Origin: a candidate division KSB1 bacterium | GTDB lineage: Bacteria; Electryoneota; RPQS01 | Reading direction: 5' to 3' | DNA length: 64,000 bases | NCBI GenBank assembly: GCA_016214895.1 | Contig: JACRMR010000013.1 | Location: 66,971 to 130,970, forward strand | Shown: piece by piece, positions 26,572 through 35,209 of the stretch | Layout: every line of letters begins with the position of its first letter | How positions within the stretch are numbered: position 1 is the stretch's first letter | The notes under the pieces: generated by a model | The model's input: the letters and a program-made list of their open reading frames with translations, nothing else | Database searches by the model: none | Told to the model about the DNA's origin: nothing | Position numbers and translations under genes: made by a program

Positions 26572-27327
26572 TCAGTAATGCGTGATCACCGTCCGTGGAT
26601 CGTCGGACTCCCCGTTTACAAACTTGCGCACCAGTTCATTTGAGGAGTTCTGCGTCTCCGCGGGAGTCCCTGAATGCACGACCCGTCCGTCGTGCAGCAT
26701 GATGATCCGACTCGATACCTTGTACGCCGACACCATATCGTGGGTCACCACAATCGTCGTCACGTCCAATTCCTGATTCATCTGGATGATCAGATCGTTG
26801 ATCGAGTCCGCCGTGATCGGATCGAGTCCCGTTGTCGGTTCATCATACAGGATATAGCGCGGCCGCATCGCAATCGCCCGCGCCAATCCCACGCGCTTCT
26901 TCATACCGCCCGAGAGCTCCGCCGGTTTCAGCTTCCGCGTGTTGGGCAGCCCGACGTGCGCCAGGCACTCATCCACCGTTCGATCGATCTCGGAGGGGGA
27001 TGCCAACTTGTGCATGTGCAATGCCAAGCCCACGTTCTCCTCAACCGTCATGGAATCCCACAACGCCGCGCCCTGAAACAGTACGCCGAACTTCTTCCGC
27101 TGTTCGTACAGTTCCTTCCGTTTCGCATGCACGATCGAATGCCCGTCCACGAGAATCTCACCCGCGTCAGGCTTCAATAGACCGACCAGGTGTTTGAGCA
27201 AGACCGACTTGCCGCACCCGGATCGACCGATGATCGTGATGGATTCCCCGGTCTCCACCGTCAGACTTACGCCGCGCAATACCGGCGTGTCCCCGAAGGA
27301 GCGCTCAAGTTCGCGTACTTCAATCAT
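26572..27327 (-). CDS. mlaF: MlaF-like ABC transporter ATPase (lipid transport)
   Basis: A 251-aa ATPase. Walker A GRSGCGKS is at 34-41, the signature LSGGMKKRVGLARA and Walker B YILYDEPTTGLDP follow, then the H-loop VTHD. Sequence style and the adjacent permease place it in the MlaF/Mkl/TGD3 group, which moves phospholipids between membranes. The open frame extends upstream into mlaE, but ATG 27327 begins the domain exactly and overlaps the mlaE stop by one base. Confidence 0.9.
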   Translation of the reverse strand: MIEVRELERSFGDTPVLRGVSLTVETGESITIIGRSGCGKSVLLKHLVGLLKPDAGEILVDGHSIVHAKRKELYEQRKKFGVLFQGAALWDSMTVEENVGLALHMHKLASPSEIDRTVDECLAHVGLPNTRKLKPAELSGGMKKRVGLARAIAMRPRYILYDEPTTGLDPITADSINDLIIQMNQELDVTTIVVTHDMVSAYKVSSRIIMLHDGRVVHSGTPAETQNSSNELVRKFVNGESDDPRTVITHY

Positions 27328-28112
27328 CAGAATAGCATCATCGCAAGTATGAAATCCAGCGACAGAATCGCCAGACACGCGGTCACGAACGCGAGAATCG
27401 TGGACATCCCGACGCCCTCCGCGCCGCCCTCCGTGCGAAATCCGATGTAACAACCCACCATCGCCGCGCTCATGCCGAAAAACACCGATTTGATTAACCC
27501 GGCGATTACGTCGTAAACGTAAAAGAAATTCGGAATCAGTCCCCAGAACTGATTCGAGGTCATATTCAGAAACGTCGTGCACACAAACGCCGCACCCAGT
27601 ACCGCCACAAAATTCGCCTGAATCACGAGAATCGGCATCATCACCGTCATCGCGGCGATGCGCGGGACCGCCAGATATCGCACGCTCGAGATCGCCATCG
27701 ACTCCAAGGCGTCGATCTGCTCCGTCACCTTCATCGTGCCCAATTCCGCCGCAATCGAGGCCGACACTCGCCCCGCGATCACCAGCGCCGTCAAGACAGG
27801 CCCCAGCTCGAGCACAATTGCCTTGAAGGTCGCCGGCCCGATCAAATCAAATGGTAAGTACCCTTCGAGCTGATAGTGGCCCTGCCAGCCCGAGACCGCG
27901 CCGGTGAACGCACCCACGGTCAACACCAACGGCATGCTTTCGATGCCCAACCTTCGACACTGTGCGATGAACAGGTGCCGCTCAACGAACACGCCGTTGA
28001 TCTCGGCGATCACACGACCCATCAACTGGCCGAAGCGACCAAACTCGCCGACAAATCGAAGGACTCGCCGCCCGATGAAAGCGACCAGGTCGCCCGCGGC
28101 GTTAGTAATCAC
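27327..28112 (-). CDS. mlaE: MlaE family ABC transporter permease
   Basis: A 261-aa inner membrane permease with an amphipathic N-terminal helix and five to six hydrophobic segments. It carries the MlaE landmarks VLTALVIAGRVSASIAAELGTMKVTEQIDAL (short form: SASIAAELGTM) and LAVPR. It forms the transmembrane part with the downstream mlaF product. No MCE/MlaD gene follows, which is unusual. Confidence 0.92.
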   Translation of the reverse strand: MITNAAGDLVAFIGRRVLRFVGEFGRFGQLMGRVIAEINGVFVERHLFIAQCRRLGIESMPLVLTVGAFTGAVSGWQGHYQLEGYLPFDLIGPATFKAIVLELGPVLTALVIAGRVSASIAAELGTMKVTEQIDALESMAISSVRYLAVPRIAAMTVMMPILVIQANFVAVLGAAFVCTTFLNMTSNQFWGLIPNFFYVYDVIAGLIKSVFFGMSAAMVGCYIGFRTEGGAEGVGMSTILAFVTACLAILSLDFILAMMLF

Positions 28113-28130: not shown

Positions 28131-31100
28131 TCAGTACTCCGCTCCAATCGACATGTAGTAGAGCGGCTTTGATGTATCAACCCCATCGGTGTTCCAGGCC
28201 ACATCCCAGCGCAGGATGAAGAACCCCAGCCACGATCGCATGCCCAAGCCGTAGGCCGTCTGCACATCTTCCAGCCGCCGCCGGCCGAATTCATCCTTCT
28301 TCGTGAAGTGGAACTGATCGCCGTACCACGCGGCGCCGATGTCCGTAAACAGCGCACCCCGGATGTCCCGAATTCCGATCGGCAAAGGCCAACCCAATTG
28401 CAGGTAACGCACCATTGGAAATCGGAATTCCTGATTCGTCAGGAAGAACCGGGTGCCCGTCCCGCGCTGCTCGAAGTAGTCCCCGCCGCGAAACGGCGTC
28501 ACAAAATTCGAGAAATAAAAGTCATCGATGTTCTCGGTCGGAATGCTGTCATTCTCAAACCGCCGGTTGATCCAATTGGACACTCCGCCCAGAAAGAACC
28601 GCTGCGGTTCATCACCTTCGGAAAAACCGGCCGTCAAGCGCGAGGCCCAGGAGTAGTCCCGGCCCAGTCGAATGTAGTCCCGAGCATCCGCCTTCATCGT
28701 CAGAAACTGCGATGACCATTTGTCGTTCGGCGACGGACTGCTGTCCAGATCAGGACTGTAACCCAGCGATAGCCGGTAGCGGGTGCCGTTCACCGGCCCC
28801 GTCGATCCCCACACGACCGTGTCGTGGACATACGCCAGCTCGGGTTGAAATACGCGTCGCCTGCTCGTCTGGCGATAGCGCTGGTCGTAGCCGTCCCAGC
28901 GCGCGCGATCAATCGCGAATCCTTGCAGATTCAGTTCGGTCCGCGTGTATTTCGAGAGCGGGTACTGGAAGTCCATTCCCAGTTGCCACGTCTGATCGCG
29001 AATGTCGCCCGCGTCGAGATAGTAAACGTAGCGGTACAATCCCAGACCGTAATTCACCCGTCGCGGGAGATACAGATACTGTACCGAGAAATTCGAATTG
29101 TCGAGATTGTTGAAATCGTAGTAGAGGTCGGTGTTCACATAGATGAGCTGATTGCCCAGCACATCCGAAAACAGAATCTGCCCCCGGCCCTGCGCGCCGA
29201 AAAACGAACTGTACGCCGCCGTTGCGTACACGAAGTCCGGTGTGAACCGCGTGCGATATTTCTTGCTGAAGAACCCGCCGCCCGCCTTGCGCGTCGTCGC
29301 CGTGTCCGCGTAGGCCGTTGCCACCGGCTCACCGTTCTCCACCCCGCCGGTGTTCGCAAAGATGTATTGCCCGTAAGGCCGCTGCGTGTCCCCGATCTCA
29401 ATCGACGCGCGATCCGCGGCGCCGCTCTGCTCCGCCGAACTCGGCAATGGCTCCGGAGACCCGTGCAACCGCAGATTCGTCGAACTCAAGCTCAACGCCG
29501 GAAGCTCTTCCGCGTTCTTGACCAAATATACGTCGTATCCGCCTTCGTAAAACGAGGCGAACGTCATGCGCTGTGTGTTCAGCGAGTAACTCGGCTGCAA
29601 GCAGCCGGTCAGACAGTTCGTCACCGCTTCGGCCGCGCCCGACTCCAGATCGTACCGGTATAGATTGTAGATCCCGCTCGCGTCCGACGAATACATCAAG
29701 TACTGCCCGTTCGGCGTCAACGTCGGCGTGCGCTCGTTCGTTGGCGTGCGGGTCATCCGCTGCGCGTCCATCTCGCCGACCCGGACCAGATAGATATCCG
29801 TCTGCCGGTAATCCGCCGTCCACATGGCGGATTCCGCTGAATAACCGCGCACCCGCAGCGAATCTCCGCGATCCGAAGTAAAGTACAACGACTCTGAATC
29901 CGTGGACCAGGCCGGATCATCGTCCGAATACGGATCATCGGTCACCTGCCGTAGCTGCCGCTGCGCAAGTTCATACACATAGAGATCCGACTGTCCCGAC
30001 TTGATTCCCACGAAGGCGATCCGCTGACCGTCCCGCGACCACGTCGGATTGAAAATCGCATCCATGTCGAACCGTAATTGCTCCGTCACACGACCGCGCT
30101 TCACGTCGAGGATATTCACCGCGTCGATGCGGCCGGACTTCGAGGCAAACGTGATGCGCTCGCCGTCAGGCGACCACGAAATGCGCGCGTCCAGCCATTT
30201 CAACTGCTCAAAATTCCCGCTGCGTTCGCCCTGCAGCACGCGGTCCTGCTTGCCGCTCTCGATTTCCAGCAGCCACAAATCGAAGTAATCCGAACGATCC
30301 GAAAGAAAAGCCAGCGTTGATCCGTCCGGCGAAATCGCGCCGCCGTTGTTTACGAAATTGCGCCACTTCTCGTGGTCGGTCATCCGTTCGGAAAAATCCG
30401 TCGGCGGCTTCAAATCCGTGACCGTCGGCCAATAAATCTTGCGCAGCCAGCTTTGCCAGGAACGGTTGAACTCCTCCATATCCATGCCAACCGCGCTCTT
30501 AATCGAACGCTCAACGTCACGGGTGTTCTTGACCTTGTTGACGAATTCGCCGACCTTCTCCGAGCCGTACTTGCGGTCCAGATAATAGAACACCGACTGC
30601 CCACCCTTGTAAGCAAAGTAGCCGTAAAGATCGTCCACATTCGGCAAATATCCGGAAATCGTCGCATCGCGCATAAACATGTCGGCTTCGACATCCCACC
30701 CGCTGCGAGACTCGTATTCCGCCAGACCCTCCGTGAACCAGAGCGGAATATTCGATGTCGCCGTACCGATCAAAATCGACTGAAACCCCGAGCCGTAGAA
30801 CATCCGCAAATTCACCGCATGCGTGAGCTCGTGGTGAATGACGTGCCGAAAGCTCTCCCAATTCCCGGTGAACGGCAATACCACGCGATTCTTGAAGAAC
30901 TCCGTAAAGCCACCCACGGACTCTTCGGGTATCCCCGACGAGACATTTGTCTGCTGAAAGTTGTTGTGCGAACGGTAAATGACGATGGTGACCCGCGTCT
31001 CAAGATCGTAATTCCAGTGCTGCTCGATCTGCTTCAACGAGTGCTCGGCGGTTTCCGCCGTAAACTCCGCTAACCGCTCACCGCCCGGCGAGAAGTAAAC

Positions 31101-31229
31101 ATCGAAGTGCTCGGACTGAATGTACCGCCATTTGAAGTACTCAAACTGCACCTTATTCTGCCCAAAGTCCTGAGCCGGCAGCCGGCCAATTACGGCCAGC
31201 AATAAGAGTGCGAATGTCAGTCTGCGCAT
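28131..31229 (-). CDS. Three-part outer membrane protein: MA-type metallopeptidase, TolB-like propeller, Omp85-like barrel
   Basis: A 1032-aa exported protein. Signal peptide (1-19); gluzincin zinc site HELTH (133-137) with the downstream WFTEGLAEYE glutamate; then several blades such as GGAISPDGSTLAFLSDRSD and ARISWSPDGERITFASK (about 290-600). The C-terminal ~380 residues are rich in alternating aromatic strands and end in tyrosine, as in BamA/TamA-type surface-antigen barrels. ATG 31229 is chosen because GAGGGGG precedes it by eight bases and it opens the signal peptide. The fusion is seen directly; its function is unknown. It sits 18 bases upstream of mlaE. Confidence 0.8.
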   Translation of the reverse strand: MRRLTFALLLLAVIGRLPAQDFGQNKVQFEYFKWRYIQSEHFDVYFSPGGERLAEFTAETAEHSLKQIEQHWNYDLETRVTIVIYRSHNNFQQTNVSSGIPEESVGGFTEFFKNRVVLPFTGNWESFRHVIHHELTHAVNLRMFYGSGFQSILIGTATSNIPLWFTEGLAEYESRSGWDVEADMFMRDATISGYLPNVDDLYGYFAYKGGQSVFYYLDRKYGSEKVGEFVNKVKNTRDVERSIKSAVGMDMEEFNRSWQSWLRKIYWPTVTDLKPPTDFSERMTDHEKWRNFVNNGGAISPDGSTLAFLSDRSDYFDLWLLEIESGKQDRVLQGERSGNFEQLKWLDARISWSPDGERITFASKSGRIDAVNILDVKRGRVTEQLRFDMDAIFNPTWSRDGQRIAFVGIKSGQSDLYVYELAQRQLRQVTDDPYSDDDPAWSTDSESLYFTSDRGDSLRVRGYSAESAMWTADYRQTDIYLVRVGEMDAQRMTRTPTNERTPTLTPNGQYLMYSSDASGIYNLYRYDLESGAAEAVTNCLTGCLQPSYSLNTQRMTFASFYEGGYDVYLVKNAEELPALSLSSTNLRLHGSPEPLPSSAEQSGAADRASIEIGDTQRPYGQYIFANTGGVENGEPVATAYADTATTRKAGGGFFSKKYRTRFTPDFVYATAAYSSFFGAQGRGQILFSDVLGNQLIYVNTDLYYDFNNLDNSNFSVQYLYLPRRVNYGLGLYRYVYYLDAGDIRDQTWQLGMDFQYPLSKYTRTELNLQGFAIDRARWDGYDQRYRQTSRRRVFQPELAYVHDTVVWGSTGPVNGTRYRLSLGYSPDLDSSPSPNDKWSSQFLTMKADARDYIRLGRDYSWASRLTAGFSEGDEPQRFFLGGVSNWINRRFENDSIPTENIDDFYFSNFVTPFRGGDYFEQRGTGTRFFLTNQEFRFPMVRYLQLGWPLPIGIRDIRGALFTDIGAAWYGDQFHFTKKDEFGRRRLEDVQTAYGLGMRSWLGFFILRWDVAWNTDGVDTSKPLYYMSIGAEY

Positions 31230-31416: not shown

Positions 31417-31983
31417 TCACGAACCGCCCAGTACTTCATCGACCATCGCCAACAGCTCTTCCGTCTTGATCGGCTTCGTGAGGTAATTGTAGGCGCCTTC
31501 CTTGATTACCTGTACCGTGTCTTCGATCTTCGGATACCCAGTCAGGATCACGATCGTCGCCTGCGGGTCCACCGTCCGAATTTCCCGGAAAACATCGATT
31601 CCGCTCTTCCCCCTTAACTTCACATCAAGGAATGTAAGTGCCGGAGCCTTGTCGGTATGGAACTTGACTGCCTCATCACCCGTCATCGCCGTTAACACGT
31701 CGTAGCCCGCCGCCTTTAGCAGGTCTGACATGACCTGCAAGATCATCGTGTCGTCGTCAACTACTAAAACAGCGCGCGAACGCGGGGACTGCTCCTCTAA
31801 GCGCTGTCTCTCAATGTTCTGCTTTATCTCTTCAAGATTACGGGCATCATACAACCGCCAGCCGCGCCAGTCGCGACGCACCTTGGTGATTAGTCCCTCA
31901 CGTTCCCACTTGAAAAGCGTGGACTTAGAAATCTGTAGCTGCTCGCAGACTTCCTTGGACGAATAGAACTTGCCGTCGCTCAT
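31417..31983 (-). CDS. MerR-like HTH fused to a response-regulator receiver domain
   Basis: A 188-aa protein. Residues 1-60 form a MerR-type winged HTH (YSSKEVCEQLQISKSTLFKW, then WRLYDARNLEEI). Residues 70-188 form a receiver domain with the acidic pair Asp76/Asp77, phosphoacceptor Asp120, a switch Thr in VILTGYP and Lys in LTKP. This order, DNA-binding domain first and receiver last, is the reverse of usual response regulators. It is preceded by its own promoter and an inverted repeat, suggesting autoregulation. No sensor kinase gene is nearby. Confidence 0.88.
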   Translation of the reverse strand: MSDGKFYSSKEVCEQLQISKSTLFKWEREGLITKVRRDWRGWRLYDARNLEEIKQNIERQRLEEQSPRSRAVLVVDDDTMILQVMSDLLKAAGYDVLTAMTGDEAVKFHTDKAPALTFLDVKLRGKSGIDVFREIRTVDPQATIVILTGYPKIEDTVQVIKEGAYNYLTKPIKTEELLAMVDEVLGGS

Positions 31984-32335: not shown

Positions 32336-35209
32336 TCATGGGGCAGAGGAAGACACCACCTGATAGAATAACGATGACCCCGCCCCAATCGCTCCCAAAT
32401 CAAAGAACACCGTGTCCATTGTAGCGCCCTCGACCGTGGAATACGGTCCTCCAGGAATCAACGCACTGTAAATTCTGTAGTAAGGCGATCCTGTCGAATT
32501 CCAGTTCAGCCGGACATCATTCCCTGACCGCGAGGCTACCACCGTCGGCGGGAGCATCATCCAGCCCTGAACCCGGATCATCCGGTTTCCGAGCCGAGCA
32601 TTGGAGTCACCGGCCGCTTCGCTCAGCCACGTGTGGTCGCATGGGTCATAGACGTACGATCTGCCCGCCTCCACCAGTGTCTGATCGAGGCCGAATGCTT
32701 CGTTACCTCCCGGTGGGTTTGAAACCGCTACGTAGAAGTCGCCGTTGAATGCAAGGGGCGCGCCCTCATCACTGAATAGCACTGACCGCACCCAATCTGC
32801 CGCAGAGGGACCGCCGACGAGGTTTCCGAGCGAACCCTTCAGGCTCTCGTACAACACCGTTCCGGGTTGGCCCCCGGGGCCATCTGCGTCCAGCAGTTGA
32901 ACTCGGATCTGCGAGTGAACAGAATCCGGATGACTCGCGGCGATGAACAACTCGGTTGCACAGATGATGAACGGCGAACCGGGAGGCGTGAATCTTACCG
33001 CCCACGCGAACGAGTCCTGTTGCGACCAGTTGAACAGCTCGGCCGTTCCGTCGTCATACGCGAGCGTCGTCCCGCAAGAAGGTTCGACCTGGAACACAAA
33101 TGTGTCAGTCTCGGCGGTAAGACTCTCCGTATCGTAGGCGCGGATCCGGTAGTCAAATGTTCCCGGGGCGAGCGTCGGCGTTGCCGCAAACTCATCGGGA
33201 TTGCCCGTCGCGATCAGTGGAAGCGAATCAAACACGACAGCGGGTTCTTGCCGGTAGAAGAGCGTGCCACTGACGCCCGGCAGATCGTCGCTCAATAATG
33301 CCGTGAAGACCACCGGTCCCGGTAAGGCATCCGCGTGCGGATCGTGAACAACCGAGGGCGGCGTGGCCGCCGCGCGAATCTCAAAATTTGCGTTCGAGGT
33401 GTCGCGCTTGGTCGTGTCCGACAGGAGCGTCACCCGAATTCGCGCGGTCGTAGTCAGCGGCGACGTGACGGTCCACGGAATCAGTTGGTCCTCCACGGCA
33501 ACCGCGGCTGCCAGCGTGGACCACGTCGCCGACGGGAAGCTGCGATTCAACTCAATCCTCGCGTTTCCGCTAACACCGCCGAAGCTCCAGGTAATATCCC
33601 TGGTCGAACCCACGGGCCAGGACTCGCCGCCGTTGGGAGCATCCATTTGCACATACGGGTTGGCAATCGTGAAATCCGCAAGTGATGTGTCCCCGACTGC
33701 CGGCTGATTGATGCTGTATATTCGAAGCCGGGCATGCGTCGTCGTCGGCCCGCTCACGGACCATGTTTCCGCGCCGTCATTTACGGCACTGCCATACAAA
33801 ATCGACCAGCCACCGAGCGGATAGTCCCGGTTCAGCTCGATCCGCACATTGCCGGAAAACCCGCTGCCCGCCCAGAGCATGGACAGCCCGCTGCCGATGA
33901 AGAACGTCTCGCCCCCGTCCGGCGATACAAGGTTCAGCGCCGGGTGCTGAATGAAGAAGTTTGCGTCCGAGACATCGTTCACGGCTGGCTGCGCGTCGGA
34001 AACCACCTGAATCCGCGCCGTGACGGTCGTTGGATCGTTGATCGTCCAGGTGAAAGCGCCGTCGTCGGTGGTCCCACTCACGATGTCCACAAAGTTGCCC
34101 GAGGGGTACGTGCGATTGATCCGCAAGCTTACCGTCCCGCTCAAATTCTGACTCGCCCACAGGATCGTGTACGGCTCCCCGGTGTACAACAGTTCCGAGC
34201 CATTCGGCTGCAAGAGGGCGATGGACGCGATGGCCTGCGACTGCCGCACACACTTGAAATAGACCGGAAGATGATCCGAGCAAAGATGCAGTGCGTCCGG
34301 GATCGTATCCGGCACCGACAAATTGGGGCCGTCGTTTACGTCGAGATTGAAGTGATTGCCGTCTTGGCCGACAGTTCGATAGCTCCCGCTGACATAAACC
34401 CAGCCGTTCCCGGATTGAAACTCGTAGGAAAGCAGCGCGAAATCAAATCGATCGTCCAGGCCTCCCGTGGAACCACCATCCCCCAAATTGTTCAAACGCG
34501 TGGATTGGGAATGAACGGACGCGAAGCTCGCGCTGGAGTGCCAATTGCCCGGCGTATTGATCGGATCATAGAGCCGGCCCGAATTATCGGCCTGGCTGCC
34601 CGTGAGTTCCACATAGGCCGGCTCGCTGCTCGTGTAGAGATTGAAATCCCCGCAGGCCACGAAATAGCCCGGTGCCAGCGCGTTCAAGTGGTTGCGCAAC
34701 GTATCCGCTTCGCCGAATCGCTCACTTTCAAACCCCTGCGATGCCTTCAAGTGCGCGGAGTAGATTTGCAGGTCAACCGTATCCGCTCCCACGCCAACCG
34801 GCCGCAACCGATACCCATTGATATCGCGGAGTTGAGTCTCCAGCACGGTCTGCGAAATGAAATTGACCTTGGCCGCCTTATAGAACATCGCGTTGTCCGT
34901 GTCCGGGCCGTTGATGAACGGCGCCGCGCTGTACGTGCCCGGCTGCCCGAAGTTCAACACCTGACTCAGAAACTCGCTCACGCCTGCCGCGCTGGTCATC
35001 TCCTGAACCACCAGGATATCGGGGTCCACGTACCGCAGCGTCTTCCTGAATTCCGGGTTCCGCGTCGCCGAATTCGACCCCGGGTAGTTCAACAGATTGT
35101 AAGACATCACCAGCAGCGTGTCCGAGGTCTGAGCATAGACTCCGCCGCACGCCGGGAAGATCAGCACCGCCAACACCATCCCAATACGAATTCCAGTCAG
35201 TCGCTTCAT
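32336..35209 (-). CDS. Secreted endonuclease/exonuclease/phosphatase-family protein with three Ig-like repeats
   Basis: A 957-aa exported protein. Signal peptide to about residue 26; EEP nuclease fold at about 30-315, with the catalytic-type VVQEM, ACGDFNLY and CSDHLPVYF segments. Three tandem domains of about 90 aa follow, each with an NGGE/NGSE-like opening and ITW/ILW strand; a further domain and a C-terminal Fn3-like region (about 880-957) come last. EEP enzymes cleave nucleic acids or phosphoesters. Extracellular nutrient scavenging is an inference. It is transcribed alone, upstream of tatA. Confidence 0.82.
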   Translation of the reverse strand: MKRLTGIRIGMVLAVLIFPACGGVYAQTSDTLLVMSYNLLNYPGSNSATRNPEFRKTLRYVDPDILVVQEMTSAAGVSEFLSQVLNFGQPGTYSAAPFINGPDTDNAMFYKAAKVNFISQTVLETQLRDINGYRLRPVGVGADTVDLQIYSAHLKASQGFESERFGEADTLRNHLNALAPGYFVACGDFNLYTSSEPAYVELTGSQADNSGRLYDPINTPGNWHSSASFASVHSQSTRLNNLGDGGSTGGLDDRFDFALLSYEFQSGNGWVYVSGSYRTVGQDGNHFNLDVNDGPNLSVPDTIPDALHLCSDHLPVYFKCVRQSQAIASIALLQPNGSELLYTGEPYTILWASQNLSGTVSLRINRTYPSGNFVDIVSGTTDDGAFTWTINDPTTVTARIQVVSDAQPAVNDVSDANFFIQHPALNLVSPDGGETFFIGSGLSMLWAGSGFSGNVRIELNRDYPLGGWSILYGSAVNDGAETWSVSGPTTTHARLRIYSINQPAVGDTSLADFTIANPYVQMDAPNGGESWPVGSTRDITWSFGGVSGNARIELNRSFPSATWSTLAAAVAVEDQLIPWTVTSPLTTTARIRVTLLSDTTKRDTSNANFEIRAAATPPSVVHDPHADALPGPVVFTALLSDDLPGVSGTLFYRQEPAVVFDSLPLIATGNPDEFAATPTLAPGTFDYRIRAYDTESLTAETDTFVFQVEPSCGTTLAYDDGTAELFNWSQQDSFAWAVRFTPPGSPFIICATELFIAASHPDSVHSQIRVQLLDADGPGGQPGTVLYESLKGSLGNLVGGPSAADWVRSVLFSDEGAPLAFNGDFYVAVSNPPGGNEAFGLDQTLVEAGRSYVYDPCDHTWLSEAAGDSNARLGNRMIRVQGWMMLPPTVVASRSGNDVRLNWNSTGSPYYRIYSALIPGGPYSTVEGATMDTVFFDLGAIGAGSSLFYQVVSSSAP

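Follow-up and report, generated by a model that had tools for sequence, protein, structure and literature searches.

A peptidase, a propeller and an Omp85 barrel fused in one protein encoded beside mlaE and mlaF: a candidate outer-membrane partner of a split MCE transporter

The window analyzed here, a stretch of 64,000 nucleotides from a candidate division KSB1 bacterium (GTDB phylum Electryoneota; contig JACRMR010000013.1 of assembly GCA_016214895.1), contains a gene for a secreted peptidase/TolB-like propeller/Omp85-barrel protein of 1032 amino acids, hereafter FUS (28131..31229, minus strand, as are all window features given below). Its bounds are exact, with the ATG at 31229 and the stop codon at 28131-28133; residue numbers count from this ATG, and the alignments and the structural model begin one residue later. 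The N-terminus is a signal-like segment. It is followed by a gluzincin domain of the Peptidase MA clan (residues ~21-286; 30372..31169), which matches PF13485 (Peptidase_MA_2) above the cut-off (E=1.9e-12) and carries the motif HELTH at residues 133-137 (30819-30833) in the sequence. Judging from the alignment, E167 is likely the third zinc ligand; FUS thus combines the HExxH motif with the downstream glutamate ligand by which this clan is recognized. A TolB-like beta-propeller comes next (residues ~287-579; 29493..30371), detected through PD40 repeats (E=2.9e-30), a sequence search against TolB in the PDB (E=4e-20) and a Foldseek match to TolB 1crz (E=2.4e-16). The TolB equivalog profile gives E=7.8e-39, yet this score lies under the profile's cut-off.

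A variable linker of low model confidence (residues ~580-656; 29262..29492; pLDDT <50 at 595-641), which bears long insertions in family f5 of the home phylum, leads from the propeller to a 16-stranded Omp85 beta-barrel (residues ~657-1032; 28134..29261) found by modeling and Foldseek. The barrel has both signatures that, together with 16 strands, mark the Omp85 superfamily, namely the L6-type Arg-Gly pair R914-G915 (28485-28490) and the F-x-D-x-G signature near D963. Pfam Omp85 is not among the matches listed at E<=1 for the window copy on its own, whose only named barrel profile match is the TamL barrel (E=1.6e-8). No POTRA domain was found in Pfam scans of the window copy and 41 homologues, or in the model.

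The AlphaFold2 model, built with 60 homologues (mean pLDDT 86.9, pTM 0.86), comprises from N- to C-terminus an alpha-rich peptidase domain, the propeller, the disordered linker (595-641) and 16 barrel strands. When this model was compared with the PDB using Foldseek, TolB ranked first, followed by the barrels of BamA and TamA (E about 1e-11), and the best solved barrel by TMt was that of TamA (4n74; 0.64). Among the matches listed, no structure covers the peptidase part, whose assignment is based on Pfam and the motif. A sequence-only reading of this DNA had proposed that a HELTH zinc peptidase, TolB-like blades and an Omp85-like barrel share one chain, and Pfam together with the structural model and Foldseek now bears this out. 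The model strongly supports placement of the barrel in the outer membrane; by analogy with Omp85 topology and with PlpD, the peptidase and propeller are probably periplasmic.

Directly downstream lie mlaE (27327..28112; PF02405, E=3.1e-67), a lone permease subunit gene and the sole MlaE match in the whole genome, and mlaF (26572..27327; ABC_tran, E=4.7e-36), which encodes the ATPase subunit and matches the NCBIfam MlaF profile under its cut-off (E=1.8e-57). The start of mlaE is 18 bases past the FUS stop codon and mlaE and mlaF overlap by one base, a spacing that makes a predicted three-gene operon FUS-mlaE-mlaF likely. Scans for promoters and terminators gave results at chance level. As the sequence-only reading had held, no MCE gene is present in this operon. 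Upstream of FUS, the window encodes a hybrid regulator that joins a MerR-type DNA-binding domain to a response-regulator receiver (31417-31983), kept at this place in families f1 and f2, and a secreted protein of 957 amino acids that contains Kre9/KNH-like repeats in addition to an endonuclease/exonuclease/phosphatase domain (32336-35209).

FUS is a real, deeply conserved fusion. Homologues, mostly 40-68% identical over its length, were found in all 34 genomes of the home phylum, and 113 of 118 Cloacimonadota genomes also encode one. A profile scan of named genomes returned at least about 500 relatives, the best 80 of which come from KSB1, Calditrichota, Delongbacteria, Eisenbacteria, Cloacimonadota, Gemmatimonadetes, Latescibacterota, Poribacteria and WOR-3 records. 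Most genomes in these comparisons are metagenome assemblies with genes called by simple ORF rules, and the labels for Cloacimonadota and other groups follow record titles, some of which look mislabeled (L212). In a Pfam scan of 41 diverse members, the peptidase and the propeller were each detected in 41/41, which argues against a chance ORF; PF01103 (Omp85) was detected at E<=0.001 in 24 of them. Analyzing 60 diverse homologues, we found that the histidine, glutamate and histidine of HExxH, the glutamate of W-F-x-E-G-x-A-E, and the barrel residues R, G, E, R and D are invariant. The invariant columns number 44 in total, with 23 in the peptidase, 17 in the barrel and 4 in the propeller. The peptidase active site is therefore the most conserved part of FUS, and this pattern suggests that catalysis is essential rather than vestigial. 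Most genomes of the home phylum additionally encode a divergent peptidase-propeller-barrel paralogue of about 1030-1110 amino acids and about 30% identity (in this genome G000:C8:122715-124517(+), L004; in G027, L142, where it is not linked to mla genes).

By its predicted architecture, FUS is a peptidase-bearing variant of the WD40-Omp85 subfamily, which Heinz and Lithgow named in 2014 for a propeller joined to an Omp85 barrel (PMC4104836). As in FUS, the propeller in that subfamily is closest to TolB and lies directly N-terminal to the barrel, and no POTRA domain is reported for it; Omp85 subfamilies that lack POTRA are known. The word peptidase is absent from the main text of the study, whereas a gluzincin domain is invariant in the FUS family. 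The architecture of propeller and barrel was thus already on record. Open-access literature yielded no report of a peptidase-Omp85 fusion tied to MCE transport.

A profile search of the whole genome, as the sequence-only reading had suggested, revealed exactly one MCE gene over the cut-off, at 454770-454994(-) of contig C12, and thereby rules out that the genome lacks MCE. It stands at the end of the gene order HPF, HprK, EIIA, EIIB, MCE, in which the first four names are read from sequence. The wider arrangement with an orphan MCE gene, SecA...TopA-XerC-HPF-HprK-(EIIA-EIIB)-MCE, also occurs in KSB1 and Calditrichota records, and an EIIB-MCE arrangement occurs in Delongbacteria (loci with the HPF-HprK-(EIIA-EIIB)-MCE synteny: L143, L288, L293, L296, L304, L287 and L301). 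Genomes of these three groups that carry the orphan MCE gene have a lone mlaE-mlaF pair elsewhere, often before radA. In the MCE tree, the HprK-linked orphan MCEs group with those of Cloacimonadota in a single clade (87/90); the MlaE tree has a corresponding clade of lone MlaEs (100/98), which the Cloacimonadota and WOR-3 MlaEs adjoin. WOR-3 is placed beside Cloacimonadota in both trees, and both WOR-3 and Eisenbacteria have kept the related E, F and D genes together. A tree test that held the MlaEs of split systems together without the canonical WOR-3 and Eisenbacteria copies gave p-AU 0.043, as expected if these canonical operons belong to the subtype of the split transporter.

Congruent trees and shared synteny identify the orphan MCE and the lone mlaEF as the halves of a single split MCE transporter that is FCB-wide. 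The separation of MCE from mlaEF is thus a rearrangement common to several FCB phyla, not a loss. The Mla system (MlaFEDB-MlaC-MlaA, or the minimal MlaEFD of Veillonella) is thus represented here by a lone MlaE, MlaF and a cognate MCE protein, the latter, unlike in the known systems, encoded apart from EF. In E. coli, mla also lies near hpf-ptsN-rapZ-npr, which, taken with the HPF/HprK-PTS-MCE synteny, suggests an ancient common neighborhood. A transporter that appears incomplete in its operon can accordingly keep the missing subunit at a conserved distant locus.

Linkage of FUS to the genes of this transporter varies with lineage. In the home phylum, every genome of families f1, f2 and f4 has the order FUS-mlaE-mlaF (17/17), with FUS 46-68% identical to the window copy, and none of f3, f5 and f6 does (0/17), which rules out a universal linkage. 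In genomes G003 and G023, which have a second, canonical mlaEFD operon, FUS adjoins the lone pair and not the canonical operon. The Cloacimonadota are linked differently: in 35 of 38 informative genomes, FUS directly follows an MCE gene of the same subtype, which in turn is often preceded by mlaF, and mlaE is found elsewhere, beside dnaB. Conservation of the gene order across FCB genomes, which the sequence-only reading had put forward as a check, therefore holds in part of the home phylum and takes another form in Cloacimonadota. That reading would have been refuted by an MCE gene co-regulated elsewhere together with an unconserved gene order; a distant MCE gene does exist, but the order is conserved.

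The FUS tree places the mlaEF-linked and the MCE-linked copies apart, with unlinked lineages in between, and as order and partner also differ, the two linkages are probably separate events, although an ancestral cluster with many losses may be the alternative. Under random gene order, two or more of 10-15 lineages would show linkage with a probability of about 7e-5 to 1.5e-4, a post hoc value that ignores functional or envelope-gene clustering. We consider it improbable that the neighborhood is without functional meaning, that is, that FUS came by accident to lie in a ccsA-mlaEF region and beside MCE in Cloacimonadota. In favor of such an accident, ccsA, a cytochrome c assembly gene, lies directly upstream of FUS in f2, f3 and f4 (Pfam; loci L118-L133), in f3 without mlaEF, and genome G043 carries ccsA-mlaE-mlaF-radA without FUS (L347), so that one FUS insertion may explain the window arrangement. 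However, the FUS-mlaEF linkage has outlived the deep divergence of the linked copies, and a second linkage exists in another phylum.

The components of this transporter leave room at the outer membrane. MlaA was found in 0/34 home-phylum genomes in a search whose E. coli control was positive. A model of a FUS-linked MCE protein, of low confidence and based on an alignment of 2 sequences, has only helices after the MCE domain and no barrel, and a published survey describes the MlaD proteins of the FCB group as lacking the outer-membrane beta-barrel that is present in Veillonella (PMC10665443). Taken together, these observations imply that an outer-membrane partner is wanted, and the two separate linkages to one MCE subtype, combined with the absence of MlaA, make this role plausible for FUS.

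We tentatively favor, if only slightly, the interpretation that FUS is the outer-membrane partner of the split MCE lipid transporter, with protease-based upkeep. Its TamA/BamA-type barrel would reside in the outer membrane, with the zinc peptidase and propeller facing the periplasm where POTRA domains usually sit; MlaE-MlaF, encoded next to FUS, would occupy the inner membrane, and the MCE ring would be supplied from the HprK/PTS locus. The propeller and peptidase may dock the MCE protein or client proteins, the peptidase may trim or remove misassembled clients at the barrel, as BepA does at BAM, and lipid would pass at or along the barrel. Gene linkage is what points to a physical FUS-MCE partnership, and the protease clients are likewise putative. 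There is precedent on both sides for such a barrel: in TamAB, a trans-envelope phospholipid route, a TamA-type barrel is the endpoint of phospholipid transport (PMC12800296), while work on the Bacteroidota Omp85 protein TamL concluded that it is unlikely to transport the main lipids (PMC12045153). FUS resembles both proteins in its barrel, as TamA and TamL are its best solved structure by TMt and its sole named barrel profile, respectively, but it has a peptidase and propeller in place of POTRA domains and is linked to MCE/MlaEF, not to TamB, as its inner-membrane system.

The earlier suggestion that FUS could provide the lipid path with its outer membrane end is thus partly supported: it gains from the two linkages, the missing MlaA and the barrel-less MCE, and loses on two other counts. 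An invariant protease site is not explained by a lipid conduit, and FUS is distributed more broadly than the split transporter. It is kept in f3, f6 and 4/6 f5 genomes, where no lone mlaEF or HprK-linked MCE was detected, and in G034, a small genome (100% complete) with zero MlaE or MCE matches; FUS function can therefore outlive the transporter. Moreover, FUS of KSB1 and Calditrichota adjoins a GWxTD-type gene and not Mla: at 24 KSB1/Calditrichota/Gemmatimonadetes loci, a gene for a secreted protein of ~430 amino acids with a GWxTD-like motif comes immediately after FUS or one gene later (including L157, L159-L163, L169, L172, L173, L195 and L197-L200), and is a third conserved neighbor.

These same features give weight to the other proposal of the sequence-only reading, processing of proteins at the barrel, which is almost equally open. 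In its general form, FUS would be an outer-membrane protein assembly and quality-control factor, uniting a BamA/TamA barrel, a BepA-like protease and a BamB/TolB-like platform and acting on barrel proteins or lipoproteins, and the MCE linkage would reflect envelope-gene clustering only. We regard this as a strong contender, hardly less credible than the partner role. FUS is near-universal in FCB phyla, even where the split MCE system is missing, its peptidase is its most conserved part, and the Omp85 signature residues are kept. Heinz and Lithgow propose a function in assembly for WD40-Omp85 proteins (PMC4104836), and BepA, an M48 zinc protease, works at BAM (PMC8423444). Similar to what is predicted for FUS, BepA is an HExxH protease that acts in the periplasm at an Omp85 machine, but it is a separate TPR protein and not fused to a barrel. 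However, the genome has separate BamA-type and other Omp85 genes (five matches), which rules out FUS as the sole BamA, and an assembly role leaves unexplained why two phyla place FUS by different subunits of one MCE subtype.

It is very improbable that FUS uses its own barrel to deliver the peptidase to the cell surface or to secrete it. Protein translocation does occur in Omp85 relatives, FhaC among them, and a secretion model like that of PlpD was once proposed (PMC4104836); the enzyme domain of PlpD was later shown to remain periplasmic (PMC11116518), and in our model the folded peptidase and propeller of FUS are N-terminal, at the POTRA position. PlpD, a patatin-Omp85 protein, thus parallels the predicted layout of FUS, with an enzyme domain attached to an Omp85 barrel and facing the periplasm, but it is a phospholipase with POTRA, whereas FUS is a peptidase with a propeller.

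Extending the favored partner role, FUS could supply many FCB bacteria with the outer-membrane terminus that their MCE transport is missing: a protease-controlled Omp85 barrel that would take lipid from an MCE conduit, gate or clear it by proteolysis, and replace MlaA-MlaC and the MlaD barrel; in this broad form we consider the proposal rather unlikely. For most phyla, the question arises how lipids travel to or from the outer membrane in the absence of MlaA and MlaC, and FUS, nearly universal in several little-studied phyla and with its gene adjoining those of two distinct subunits of a single MCE subtype, provides a named and directly testable candidate. A third type of MCE operon, common to several phyla, was also observed; it encodes MCE, an ABC_trans_aux lipoprotein (PF03886), a secreted protein of about 520 amino acids, MlaE (about 365 amino acids) and MlaF (L149:7000-11900, L290, L294, L295, L299, L307 and L312).
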